From assembly GCA_028687335.1 (NCBI GenBank), contig JAQUAI010000001.1:124001-188000 (forward strand): a DNA stretch of 64,000 nucleotides, read 5' to 3'. A program made the position numbers and the translations under genes. This document shows, piece after piece, positions 40,864 to 49,223 of this stretch; positions within the stretch are counted from its first letter, which is position 1; each line of letters begins with the position of its first letter. The notes under the pieces are model-generated. The model had not been told where the DNA came from and made no database searches. It worked only from the letters and a program-made list of their open reading frames with translations. Origin of the DNA: Gallionella sp. (GTDB lineage: Bacteria; Pseudomonadota; Gammaproteobacteria; Burkholderiales; Gallionellaceae).

Positions 40864-42192
40864 TTAGCTGCTTAAAGCAGCATCGCTCAAGCCACTTTGT
40901 TCTGCGCACTCTTGTTTTCTGCGTCCCGTTTCATCGCCCAGCCTGTCAGATACGGTATCGCCTGCTTCCCAGAGTAGTTGGAACACCGCCATCGCATCTT
41001 GTTTGCCACGGAACGATGCGCGGGTGACAGGAACGATCTTGTCTTCGAATTCGTCAGGCAGCACGTCGACGAACTCTTGTGATGTCATGGTCTGGCGCGC
41101 CCTTGTGATGGATGCGATGCGGGCTGCGACATTCACCGTGTCGCCGAACACATCGTTGGCCTTGAGGATGACTTCACCAAAATGGATGCCGATGCGCAAA
41201 GCGATGGTTTGCTCACCGCCAGGTTTTCTTGTATCGATGGCAAAGTGCATCGCACGCGCCGCAGCGGCTGCCAGTGCCGCATTAGGGAAGGTACACATCA
41301 CCTCATCACCGATGGTTTTGACCAGTGTTCCCTTGTGTTTGGCGATCTCCTGTTTCACAAGGTTCAAGGTGCGCGTGATCATATTTAGCGCGGCCTTGTC
41401 CCCCAATTGCTCGTACAAGGCAGTACTGCCGCAAATATCAGCGAACATCACGGCCATATTTCGTGTCATCTGTGAGGAGTAGATAGCGCGGCTCTGGATA
41501 GCCATGTTTTGCGTTTCGGCGTAGTGCAGGATCTTCGCGACACGCGCTAAACGCAACTTCAGAGCAAGATCGGTGGGTGTCATGTCGAATTGGTTTTTTA
41601 TCTTGAGCTTTGCTCCATGCAGCAATAACAGCAAAACGACATCGGCATTACCTTTTTCAACGGCGGCGAAGATGGGGATGCATCCATCCTGACTGAAGTT
41701 CACTTCCACATCCGAGATCAGCAATTGGTGCAGTGCGGCAAAGTCACCATTCATGATGGCGGAAAGTATGAGACTCCTAGATTCGATGGTGTCACGTAAT
41801 TGGCTGACGAAAGCATCTGCCTCTGCGGGTGTTTCGTGGCCATACTCAACCGATTTCTCACGATCTTTTTTTAGCTTGTCGTAAAGCTTATACAGCAATG
41901 CGACTGCTACCAGCACACCAGAAGCAATGATGAATGCCGTCTGACTGAGGTGGAGTTGAGTCGCCAACTGCGCTGGCAGATTCGCACCGATGGCCAGCAC
42001 CGACACCGTGAGGAACAACATGAACTTGAGATAGCGGAACAGTGAGATGAACACCGTCACTACCAGCGCGATCAACAACAGATTGCGGTCGACCACATTG
42101 CCGACTACGTCCGCTGGTAGATTGGCGCCGAACGCCATCAGCGAAACGATAACTAACAACAAAACATCGTTGCTCTTGAAATTGATTTGCAT
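40864..42192 (-). CDS. membrane-bound class III nucleotidyl cyclase with ankyrin-like repeats
   Basis: The 442-residue protein starts with about four membrane helices (residues 8-120). A cytoplasmic ankyrin-like region (about 150-225: GCIPIFAAVEKGNADVVLLL, FDMTPTDLAL) and a class III cyclase domain (about 245-410) follow. Both metal-binding Asp positions are visible, VMFADICGSTALYEQLGD and KTIGDEVMCTF. GIHFGEVILKANDVFGDTVN carries the usual dimer/active-site elements. The product is probably cAMP, though substrate-choosing residues cannot be judged safely. AGGAGG stands just before ATG 42192. A c-di-GMP-I riboswitch lies in its leader. Confidence 0.87.
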   Translation of the reverse strand: MQINFKSNDVLLLVIVSLMAFGANLPADVVGNVVDRNLLLIALVVTVFISLFRYLKFMLFLTVSVLAIGANLPAQLATQLHLSQTAFIIASGVLVAVALLYKLYDKLKKDREKSVEYGHETPAEADAFVSQLRDTIESRSLILSAIMNGDFAALHQLLISDVEVNFSQDGCIPIFAAVEKGNADVVLLLLLHGAKLKIKNQFDMTPTDLALKLRLARVAKILHYAETQNMAIQSRAIYSSQMTRNMAVMFADICGSTALYEQLGDKAALNMITRTLNLVKQEIAKHKGTLVKTIGDEVMCTFPNAALAAAAARAMHFAIDTRKPGGEQTIALRIGIHFGEVILKANDVFGDTVNVAARIASITRARQTMTSQEFVDVLPDEFEDKIVPVTRASFRGKQDAMAVFQLLWEAGDTVSDRLGDETGRRKQECAEQSGLSDAALSS

Positions 42193-42282
42193 ACTCCCCT
42201 CCTAAATATCTACTTTCACTATCGGAGAGAGACGCGGATTTCGGTTGGACGAAGCTAAGATACTAACGGAAACCGCTCGAAG

Positions 42283-42384
42283 GCTGAGTGGCTGCCGGCA
42301 ATCCCGCTGTCGTAGAGCTAACCTCACTCCTTAGACCGGAAACTTTGCGTCCCTATCTTTCAATAGGTTTGCTCTTGGTTTGCT
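42283..42384 (-). promoter_or_regulatory. c-di-GMP-I (GEMM) riboswitch in the cyclase leader
   Basis: Read on the minus strand from 42384, the GEMM-I landmarks appear in order: GAGCAAACC, a hairpin CCTATT-GAAA-GATAGG whose GAAA tetraloop is the docking loop, GGGACGCAAAG, a stem with TTTCC, GGTCTAAGGAG, and a second arm GGTTAGCTCTACGACAGCGGGATTGCC. This parallels the Vibrio cholerae Vc2 aptamer element by element. The aptamer ends about 90 bases before the cyclase start. No clear terminator hairpin follows, so control of translation is possible. The G before CAAACC is the one I align with Vc2 G20, which would favour c-di-GMP over cGAMP. Confidence 0.9.
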
Positions 42385-42394
42385 GCTGGGGCGC

Positions 42395-42422
42395 ATTATC
42401 TTCCTGCCGTTTAAGATAGCAA
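42395..42422 (-). promoter_or_regulatory. promoter of the riboswitch-cyclase transcript
   Basis: On the minus strand TTGCTA (42422-42417) and GATAAT (42400-42395) are 16 bases apart. Transcription would begin just before the riboswitch. Confidence 0.5.
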
Positions 42423-42477
42423 GAGGGGAAGCCCTCCGTCTGTCGGTTTCACCAAAGGGGACGAACGGAAAGCCGAT

Positions 42478-42523: not shown

Positions 42524-42661
42524 TTAGTGTGTGGTGGAAGGGGTGATGAACGGCTGAGCATCGTGATGATGCTTCTTCTCATGTTTCGCCATCCGCTTCT
42601 CCTTAGCGGTCATCAACGGCTTCTTCTTACTATCTTTGTGAGTGTTATGTGTCTTAGGCAT
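42524..42661 (-). CDS. 45-residue Lys/His-rich small protein
   Basis: The start ATG 42661 has a consensus AAGGAG 8 bases upstream, and a good terminator follows the stop, so this short frame is very likely expressed. The product begins MPKTHNTHKDSKKKPL and continues TAKEKRMAKHEKKHHHD, then a short neutral tail. About half of it is Lys or His, so it should be very basic and could bind nucleic acid or metal. I recognise no family. It lies downstream of the exonuclease gene in the same direction. Confidence 0.7.
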   Translation of the reverse strand: MPKTHNTHKDSKKKPLMTAKEKRMAKHEKKHHHDAQPFITPSTTH

Positions 42662-47366: not shown

Positions 47367-49223
47367 ATGCATAGGAACACTCGAAACTGGCATTCGCTAT
47401 TACTGCTCCTGTGCATGTTGCTACAGGTGCAAATATCCAGCGCTTTTGCGGCGGACAAAAATTTGGACGCGAGCCGCATGGAACAGATGCCGGTTGTGCT
47501 GAGCGAATATTTTTCTGTACTAGAAGACACCACCCAGACACTCACGCTGGCCGACGTGCAAAAGCCCGAAGTGGCCGCGCGTTTCAATACCGATCAAGCC
47601 CCAGCATCCGCTTTGAATTATGGGCTCACCGGCTCGGCTTACTGGCTGCGACTAACCTTGAGTAACACCAGTGATCAACCCCTTGAGCGGATGCTTGAGG
47701 TCGCCTATCCCATCCTCACCAGCATCCAATTCCACTATGCCGATGCGCAGGGTGGCTACCGCACGGTGGACACCGGCAATGCTTTGCCTTTCGCCACGCG
47801 CGCCTACAAAAATAGAGCTTATGTTTTTCCAGTGACACTGCCGGCGCGATCTGGGCAGGTCGTGTATCTGCGGCTTCAATCCACCACACCCATCATCGTT
47901 CCAGCCAACCTGTGGGAGCCGCAAGCTTTTCATACGCATGAGCGGAACGACTACATTGCGCAGTCATGGTATTTCGGCATGGCTACCGCCATGATCTTAT
48001 TCAACCTGCTGCTGTTCATTGCCCTGCGGGATGCCATCTACCTGTTCTATGTCAACTTCGCCTTCTGCACCGCGCTCGCTTTCTCTTCGGAATACGGCCT
48101 AGCAAAAGAATTCCTGTGGCCTGGGGCGACCCATTGGGCCATCATCTCCACTGGCATTCTGCTGTCGCTCTCAGTTGCGGCTGGCATAGCCTTCATGCGG
48201 CGCATGCTCGATACCGTCAAGCTCATTCCCAAGCTAGACAAGCTACTCAAGGCGTTGACCTATCTCTTCCTGATCATTCCCTTCAGCCTCGTTCTATCCA
48301 TCGAGACCTTCATCCGCCCAGCCGTCAGCCTCATCGTCGCAACGATACTGCTGATCTTTAGCGTGGGGCTGTACTGCTCATTCAAGCGCCAGCGTAGCGC
48401 CATCCTCTTCACCATCGCCTTCGCCATCTTACTTGCGGGTGCTGCCGCTATGGTTCTGCGAGGGCTGGGGTACTTGCCTACCAACGGTTTTACAGCTTAC
48501 GGCGTGCAACTGGGCTCTGCTATCGAAATGCTCTTACTGGCTTTTGCACTGGCCGACCGCTTTAACGTGATGCGCCGAGAAAAAGCCAAAGCACAAGAAG
48601 AAGCACTAAAGGCACAGCAACATCTGGTCGAACACCTGCAATCGCACGAACGCATCCTTGAAGACCGCGTAGCAGAACGCACCGGCGAATTAGAGATACT
48701 CAACCGCAAGCTTGAAGCGCTGAGCACGACAGATGGCCTGACCGGCATCGCCAACCGACGCCGCTTCGACCAAGTGCTAGAAAGCGAATGGAATCGCGCC
48801 GCGCGATCAGGGCAACCGCTGGCGCTCGCACTCATCGATGTGGACTGGTTCAAAAAATTTAACGACCACTACGGCCATCAAGCGGGTGATGACTGCCTAC
48901 GTCACGTTGCGGATGTGCTTGCCGCTAGCGTGTGCCGCACCAGCGATCTAGTCGCGCGCTATGGCGGCGAAGAATTCGCCTTCATCGCCCCCGCCACAGA
49001 TGCAGACAGCGCCCTCACCATGGCACGCAAGATTTGCGAAGCACTCCATGCGCGGGGCTTACCCCATGAGAAATCAGACTTCGGCTGCTTATCCGCAAGC
49101 ATCGGAGTTGCAGTCATGATCCCCAAAGAAACCGACAAAGCAGACGTTCTGTTAAAAGCCGCCGACGCCGCACTCTACCGAGCAAAAGAGCAAGGCAGAA
49201 ACAAAGCAGTGCTTGCGGAATAA
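47367..49223 (+). CDS. 7TMR-DISM diguanylate cyclase
   Basis: The 618-residue protein makes c-di-GMP in response to an extracytoplasmic signal. The order is signal peptide (residues 1-28), periplasmic 7TMR-DISMED2 domain (about 40-175; GSAYWLRLTLSNTSDQPLER), seven membrane helices (about 190-395), a coiled coil (about 400-445, EKAKAQEEALKAQQHLVEHL) and a GGDEF domain (about 455-615). The active-site loop is GGEEF (near residue 533, in ARYGGEEFAFI), so the enzyme should be active. No RxxD inhibitory site is evident at the expected place. The carbohydrate-like binding fold suggests a small-molecule ligand. A terminator follows. Confidence 0.9.
   Translation: MHRNTRNWHSLLLLLCMLLQVQISSAFAADKNLDASRMEQMPVVLSEYFSVLEDTTQTLTLADVQKPEVAARFNTDQAPASALNYGLTGSAYWLRLTLSNTSDQPLERMLEVAYPILTSIQFHYADAQGGYRTVDTGNALPFATRAYKNRAYVFPVTLPARSGQVVYLRLQSTTPIIVPANLWEPQAFHTHERNDYIAQSWYFGMATAMILFNLLLFIALRDAIYLFYVNFAFCTALAFSSEYGLAKEFLWPGATHWAIISTGILLSLSVAAGIAFMRRMLDTVKLIPKLDKLLKALTYLFLIIPFSLVLSIETFIRPAVSLIVATILLIFSVGLYCSFKRQRSAILFTIAFAILLAGAAAMVLRGLGYLPTNGFTAYGVQLGSAIEMLLLAFALADRFNVMRREKAKAQEEALKAQQHLVEHLQSHERILEDRVAERTGELEILNRKLEALSTTDGLTGIANRRRFDQVLESEWNRAARSGQPLALALIDVDWFKKFNDHYGHQAGDDCLRHVADVLAASVCRTSDLVARYGGEEFAFIAPATDADSALTMARKICEALHARGLPHEKSDFGCLSASIGVAVMIPKETDKADVLLKAADAALYRAKEQGRNKAVLAE

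Follow-up and report, generated by a model that had tools for sequence, protein, structure and literature searches.

A GEMM-I riboswitch conserved in front of a probable adenylate cyclase gene of Gallionella sp. and its putative role between cyclic dinucleotides and cAMP

In the stretch of Gallionella sp. DNA analysed here in its entirety (64,000 nucleotides, hereafter the window), the leader of a gene for a membrane-bound, probable adenylate cyclase carries a complete aptamer of the c-di-GMP-I (GEMM-I) riboswitch family. Computational comparison finds this aptamer, in the same place, conserved with this gene only, and the catalytic residues of the encoded enzyme preserved. The reading that we favour, and that we hold to be fairly probable as a whole, is that the riboswitch leader directly controls the cyclase by an OFF switch of translation upon ligand binding, with c-di-GMP as the likeliest ligand.

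Specifically, transcription would start just before the aptamer. As long as the ligand is missing, a downstream element of the type UUUGnGUCnCU would be taken up by pairing with the invariant core GGGACGCAAA of the aptamer, so that the Shine-Dalgarno sequence would be more accessible. Binding of a cyclic dinucleotide would fold the aptamer and release the element, which would then itself sequester the Shine-Dalgarno sequence, with a consequent fall in translation. In other words, high levels of the cyclic dinucleotide would result in less cyclase and, in turn, in less cAMP. A link between riboswitch and cyclase is plausible because the host is rich in c-di-GMP enzymes, with 44 GGDEF matches in a genome of 2.4 Mb. 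A riboswitch for one nucleotide messenger that sets the level of the synthase of another would represent about the shortest link of two second-messenger systems, established without a protein receptor.

The aptamer and its leader

The preliminary description of this DNA had recognised a near-complete GEMM-I aptamer in the minus-strand leader at 42192-42424 and had proposed a search of that strand with the RF01051 covariance model. The search returns a match that is in fact complete, extending over positions 1-87 of the 87 of the model at 42383-42294 of the minus strand, within the interval described, with a score of 73.5 bits (gathering score, 35) and an E-value of 1.6e-12; it is the sole Rfam match at gathering thresholds in the 64-kb window. 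A chance match is ruled out by this score together with the conservation of the aptamer before all 15 orthologs of the gene, and the aptamer is almost certainly real. In the window, 101 nt separate it from the start codon, and what follows it on the minus strand is AGGAGGGG and then the ATG at 42192. The features of the leader and of the gene are collected in Table 1.

Table 1. Features of the riboswitch leader and of the cyclase gene (window coordinates, except for the paralog in the last line)
Feature	Position	Strand	Evidence
c-di-GMP-I (GEMM-I) riboswitch aptamer	42294-42383	-	RF01051, 73.5 bits; present before 15/15 orthologs
Promoter-like TTGCTA-16-GATAAT	42395-42422	-	Sequence scan; similar motif recurs in ortholog leaders
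Ligand-discriminating base, Rfam position 11 (taken to be Vc2 position 20); A here, family consensus G	42373	-	RF01051 alignment
Aptamer core GGGACGCAAA, predicted target of the downstream anti-core element	42344-42353	-	Sequence
Hairpin CGG-n-AGCC / GGUU-n-CCG, directly 3' of the ligand site	42267-42297	-	Consensus fold, 15 leaders
Putative anti-core element (42236-42227 complementary to the core, 42230-42223 to the Shine-Dalgarno sequence)	42223-42236	-	Duplex prediction
Shine-Dalgarno sequence AGGAGGGG	42196-42203	-	Sequence
Membrane-ankyrin-cyclase gene, 442 aa, probable adenylate cyclase	40864-42192	-	ORF; PF12796 and PF00211
Ankyrin repeats, residues 145-223	41524-41760	-	PF12796 (Ank_2), 30.4 bits, cut-off 27.3
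Class III nucleotidyl cyclase domain, residues 240-401	40990-41475	-	PF00211 (Guanylate_cyc), 72.2 bits, cut-off 21.9
Paralog (222 aa) of the membrane-ankyrin part, lacking both cyclase and riboswitch	L324 1377-2045 (G061:C46)	-	

The promoter-like sequence TTGCTA-16-GATAAT ends 11 nt 5' of the aptamer. Taken alone, this match is no evidence, as chance would give 1.4 such sites, according to shuffles, in the 1.7 kb scanned, where one is observed. A motif of the form TTGCnn-N16/18-[GC]ATAAT is shared by 10 of 16 leaders, at 9-23 nt 5' of the aptamer, and a promoter belonging to the aptamer, which the preliminary description had put forward, is plausible. With respect to folding, the whole window leader is no more stable than its own shuffles (z -0.51), a common outcome that has no bearing on the covariance-model match, and its 3' part is likewise unremarkable (z 0.21).

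Upstream of the leader, on the same strand, lies a 45-codon ORF rich in His and Lys (42524-42661) with a Shine-Dalgarno-like AAGGAG; a hairpin resembling a terminator comes after it, at 42496-42483. Elsewhere in the window's genome there is only one other RF01051 match (G000:C1:9059-9141, minus strand, L002; 67.9 bits, G at the ligand-discriminating base), which precedes a 188-aa ORF resembling, by eye, a small exported protein; a similar pair is present in G036 (L073). In a further genome, two identical GEMM-I aptamers (G026:C4:264388-264472 and 683263-683347; L005 and L062) lie before what is apparently the same start of a membrane-fusion-type protein.

The cyclase and its catalytic residues

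The gene behind the leader encodes, as the preliminary description had stated, ankyrin repeats joined to a class III cyclase domain, both matches being above their cut-offs, and the N-terminal part of the protein, about 110 residues long, is hydrophobic. An AlphaFold model computed from 15 sequences has helices at the N-terminus, but it is a poor one (mean pLDDT 59.1, pTM 0.35) from which no topology can be derived.

Six residues of the cyclase domain, namely D252, K292, D296, D347, N354 and R358, show no variation in an alignment of 15 proteins. D252 and D296 are presumably the two metal-binding Asp residues, and K292 and D347 align with K101 and D157 of Ma1120, the best match of the protein among PDB sequences (E 2e-15). 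The residue set of ATP-specific class III enzymes is present in full, that is, the two metal Asp, the Lys/Asp pair for adenine and the transition-state pair N354/R358. Ma1120 is described in the accessible text of PMC4215837 as a class III adenylyl cyclase in which K101 and D157 specify ATP. The 'cAMP-type' label attached to the domain in the preliminary description fits, since the metal, adenine-specifying and transition-state residues are all kept, and an active adenylate cyclase is probably the simplest reading of the gene product.

The riboswitch-linked cyclase is one among several cyclases of its genome, where 7 matches to Guanylate_cyc are found together with 12 to cNMP_binding, 10 of which lie above the cut-off. 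The 12 cNMP-binding matches are plausible candidates for cAMP receptors. No CRP-type cAMP pocket was recognised in 12 loci with a regular expression, a result that carries no evidential weight.

Conservation of the riboswitch-cyclase pair

Genome contigs were scanned with the full-length proteins of the genus, of which three are known, and this yielded 77 loci. In 15 of them (L102-L116) the match starts at residue 1 or 3 and takes in the N-terminal half as well as the ankyrin and cyclase regions, and these are treated as orthologs, including L115, which ends at the contig end after 357 residues. RF01051 is found on the coding strand before all 15, with scores of 71.0-82.5 bits and an end 95-111 nt before the start codon, and the orthologs bearing the aptamer span two clades of the protein tree. 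The nearest named relatives of the cyclase come from MAGs assigned to Sideroxydans, Sideroxyarcus, Gallionella, Gallionellaceae and Nitrosomonadales, besides a few whose label goes no further than Gammaproteobacteria or Proteobacteria; they point to an iron oxidiser of the Gallionellaceae as the likely host of the gene.

Within the genus, 46 of 76 genomes contain some match to the cyclase protein at E 1e-30 or better, and a near full-length match is restricted to three of the 76 (G000, which is that of the window, G019 and G036). In the latter two, RF01051 lies immediately upstream of the gene; the aptamers of these two loci are identical to those of L113 and L116, so that the loci probably derive from the same genomes and were counted once.

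In the remaining 62 loci of the search (L117-L178), where the match begins at residue 167 at the earliest and where some loci have little upstream sequence, no RF01051 precedes the cyclase. Likewise, 17 further cyclase loci of the genus show no Rfam match of any kind, and no RF01051, at E up to 1, was detected in the 4 kb read for the 222-aa paralog of the N-terminal half (G061, L324). The presence of the aptamer before every ortholog and before none of the other cyclase loci scanned means that the riboswitch goes with this particular gene, and the idea of a riboswitch tied to cyclases in general is discarded on account of those loci.

An ORF resembling a methyltransferase lies upstream in 11 of 16 loci, that of the window included, and is absent from L112-L116, some of the loci compared being short. 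As these five keep the riboswitch without the shared ORF, riboswitch and gene stay together in different gene neighbourhoods, and synteny alone was rejected as the cause of the pairing. A shared operon was rejected as well: the ORF downstream is convergent, and the terminator-like site at 42496-42483 separates the cyclase from the small upstream ORF. Since none of the 15 orthologs has lost the aptamer, a genuine regulatory link is very probable, and we are highly confident that the aptamer controls the cyclase.

In one of the 62 loci, which comes from an uncultured Granulosicoccaceae MAG, four RF01051 and one c-di-GMP-I-GGC match fall within 2.9 kb (L145, 5078-7944, minus strand), on the strand opposite to the cyclase of that locus and beyond its 3' end.

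Expression platform and direction of control

The direction of control, left open in the preliminary description, was approached through an alignment of 15 leaders (A3), that is, the window and 14 orthologs; L106, a near copy of L105, was omitted from this alignment as well as from A4. Within the core, GGG and CGCAAA are invariant and the A is kept in 14 of the 15. The hairpin at 42297-42267 has 7 pairs, with 97.1% of the cells of the alignment paired and 2 pairs changed on both sides, and no canonical P1 pairing between 5' and 3' flank is predicted in the consensus fold of the 15 leaders.

At 44-58 nt upstream of the start codon, each of the 15 leaders has a UUUGnGUCnCU-type element with complementarity to the core. 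Compared with dinucleotide shuffles, the duplex of core and element reaches p<0.05 in 10 leaders (p 0.034 in the window; the weakest case is L105, with 0.67). In 13 of the 15 leaders, no other partner of the Shine-Dalgarno region is better than this element, and this second pairing exceeds shuffles at p<0.05 in one of the 15.

When formation of the aptamer is enforced in fold models of the 15 leaders, the mean unpaired fraction of the Shine-Dalgarno sequence drops by 0.27, against 0.02 in shuffles; the largest mean of a shuffle set is 0.08 and none of 100 sets reaches the observed value. The drop amounts to at least 0.25 in 8 leaders, and is small or lacking in L102, L103, L107, L114 and L115. 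In the same way, opening the Shine-Dalgarno sequence with the aptamer formed costs on average 3.5 kcal/mol more, against 0.8 in shuffles (largest set 1.4, with 0 of 60 sets reaching the observed mean). No terminator-like site was found by a terminator scan of the window between the aptamer and the start codon. For the family of leaders, these models make ligand-OFF control of translation likely.

The window's own leader behaves differently in the same models, with an unpaired fraction of 0.05 when free and 0.10 with the aptamer, that is, with no switch above chance, and with an opening cost of +1.00 kcal/mol against +1.03 in its own shuffles. In addition, enforcing the aptamer makes its fold 10.9 kcal/mol less favourable, a penalty that would have to be overcome by tight binding or by folding during transcription. 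Taken alone, this leader gives the models no support for ligand-OFF translation, which is accordingly less probable here than for the family.

Base 20 and the synthases of cyclic dinucleotides

The base that discriminates between ligands, by reading one of the ligand's purines, is at Rfam position 11 and immediately precedes the GCAAA of the first junction; we take it to be equivalent to G20 of Vc2. In the window it is A, departing from the G of the family consensus. Among the 15 orthologs it is A in nine (L102, L103, L104 and L110-L115) and G in six (L105-L109 and L116), which requires at least three changes on the protein tree, at least two of them forced by well-supported branches. In the 71 RF01051 hits of 61 genomes, A20 occurs three times, twice before this cyclase (G000 and G019) and once in a divergent hit of G051, so that outside the two cyclase leaders it is found in 1 of 69 hits; within the genus it occurs in 2 of 57. 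The assumed equivalence is consistent with the list of Geobacter contacts (A14, C15, G40, A41 and C75) in the available text of PMC6274999.

Six divergent RF01051 hits (L081, L084, L089, L090, L094 and L095) have C in place of G at position 21, and most of them have G for C opposite to it (CGGAAAG), as in the Geobacter contact list; L095 combines A20 with C21. They may belong to the c-di-GMP-I-GGC type or to a cGAMP-type variant.

As to the enzymes that could supply a ligand, Hypr GGDEF proteins carry Ser or Thr in place of the canonical Asp, as the accessible parts of PMC6456294 and PMC9140294 report. In the genome of the window (2.40 Mb in 31 contigs, 88.51% complete), the specificity position is Asp in 42 of 42 domains read, 38 by script and 4 by eye, the GGDEF matches outside this count being a 32-residue fragment and L221, which does not cover the position. 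One of the GGDEF matches is fused to a 7TMR-DISM receptor and lies in the window itself, at 47367-49223 of the plus strand. Two other genomes with A20 leaders give a similar picture: in G101 (genome of L110) all 45 domains read have Asp, one of them by eye, and in G103 (genome of L113) 19 of 20 matches, the fragment L270 not covering the position and being excluded, comprise one Asn, one degenerate sequence and otherwise Asp, with no Ser or Thr. Among the domains read, a cGAMP synthase of the Hypr GGDEF type was found in none of the three A20 genomes. The SMODS domain of CD-NTases was not detected in the window's genome, at the completeness given above; across 16 genomes only G112, which has a G20 leader, scores above the cut-off, and G101 has a sub-threshold match.

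As all 42 readable GGDEF domains have Asp, c-di-GMP is surely made in the window's genome, and it is favoured as the ligand because no source of cGAMP was found in the three A20 genomes.

Alternative explanations

That the aptamer is a degenerate, non-functional relic appears extremely improbable: the lack of P1 pairing with the 5' flank in the consensus fold and the departure of base 20 from the consensus might be taken as signs of decay, but the match extends over the full model at 73.5 bits, the aptamer is retained in all 15 orthologs and the core is invariant across 15 leaders differing up to about 53% in protein identity. A product other than cAMP is also improbable, if somewhat less so. 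The assignment of the enzyme comes from its sequence and the structural model is poor (mean pLDDT 59.1), and a cGMP-forming enzyme or a pseudo-enzyme might be envisaged; against this, the ATP-specifying K292 and D347 are invariant in 15 proteins, as are D252, D296, N354 and R358. More weight, while still being the less likely case, goes to a switch that turns expression ON rather than OFF, or that works through transcription or the stability of the RNA. Both ON and OFF switches occur among GEMM-I riboswitches, according to the available text of PMC9262584, and the window's own leader does not discriminate between the two states. On the other hand, formation of the aptamer lowers the modelled accessibility of the Shine-Dalgarno sequence in 14 of 15 leaders at 37 °C and in 13 of 15 at 20 °C, the set as a whole lies above shuffles, and a terminator-like site between aptamer and start is lacking.

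The identity of the ligand is where the preliminary description requires most revision. It had named cGAMP among the possible ligands, and had let c-di-GMP specificity follow from membership in the family; this does not hold, as A20, which the window shares with nine of 15 orthologs, is linked to cGAMP and argues against a plain c-di-GMP sensor. The alternative is a 3',3'-cGAMP sensor similar to GEMM-Ib, in which A20 would pair with the adenine of cGAMP, so that cGAMP and not c-di-GMP would control the cyclase. It draws on the rarity of A20 in other RF01051 hits (1 of 69) and on the G20A GEMM-I RNA, which binds 3',3'-cGAMP and was crystallised with it, the equivalent base in Geobacter being A14 (accessible portions of PMC6274999 and PMC7288161). 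Opposed to it are the Asp-type GGDEF domains of the three A20 genomes, with no Ser or Thr (Hypr) form among those read, the missing SMODS match in the window's MAG (88.5% complete) and the G20 of six of the 15 orthologs. Moreover, the available text of PMC9262584 calls position 20 'a selectivity factor' and not 'a hard filter', and reports that cGAMP riboswitches are able to bind c-di-GMP via a protonated adenine. Overall, 3',3'-cGAMP is the main alternative ligand but a rather unlikely one, and c-di-GMP is likely to be the main physiological ligand, bound perhaps with a specificity relaxed by A20. Of the claim that c-di-GMP is wired to the cyclase, the regulatory link therefore stands as very probable, with the aptamer before 15 of 15 orthologs, and the identity of the ligand is not established.

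A doubtful but attractive possibility is that within Gallionellaceae-type bacteria base 20 has alternated between the A of cGAMP-type and the G of c-di-GMP-type aptamers, with a minimum of two or three changes, while gene, spacing and platform stayed the same. If functional, this would represent a natural ligand-switching series and would imply an unrecognised cGAMP synthase in iron oxidisers, with an RNA standing directly between a cyclic dinucleotide and the synthesis of cAMP. The A/G series on one orthologous leader provides, in any case, a ready set of RNAs for studying the natural drift of riboswitch ligand specificity.

Comparison with known systems

The GEMM-I riboswitch is a known kind of element; a cyclase as its target was not found reported, and base 20 varies between A and G among the orthologs. 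In particular, no description of a GEMM riboswitch on an adenylate cyclase, in Gallionella and Sideroxydans or elsewhere, was found in the openly licensed literature, represented mainly by titles and abstracts. With the Vc2 type of RF01051 the present leader shares the full-length covariance-model match, the core and the junctions; it differs in having A20 for G, a hairpin in the place of the 3' flank with no conserved P1, and a class III cyclase as target. The Geobacter GEMM-Ib or 3',3'-cGAMP riboswitches likewise have A at the ligand-discriminating position, but in them this base is followed by a C that faces a G (A14, C15 and G40 in the accessible text of PMC6274999), whereas here a G faces a C. 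Furthermore, as far as the available text of PMC6456294 describes them, their targets are cytochromes, pili and the like instead of a cyclase, and their cGAMP comes from Hypr GGDEF enzymes, none of which is among the GGDEF domains read in the three A20 genomes.

The protein resembles the class III adenylyl cyclases Ma1120 of M. avium, Rv1264 and Rv1900c in its catalytic residues. It differs from Ma1120-type enzymes in its N-terminal hydrophobic helices and ankyrin repeats, and N354 corresponds to Ala in Ma1120 (accessible part of PMC4215837). The nearest functional parallel is gbpA of Vibrio cholerae, where, according to the available text of PMC4545359, cAMP and c-di-GMP signalling also meet with the involvement of a riboswitch. 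There, a single effector gene receives both signals, through cAMP-CRP and through a c-di-GMP riboswitch, whereas here the riboswitch would act on the synthase of the other messenger.
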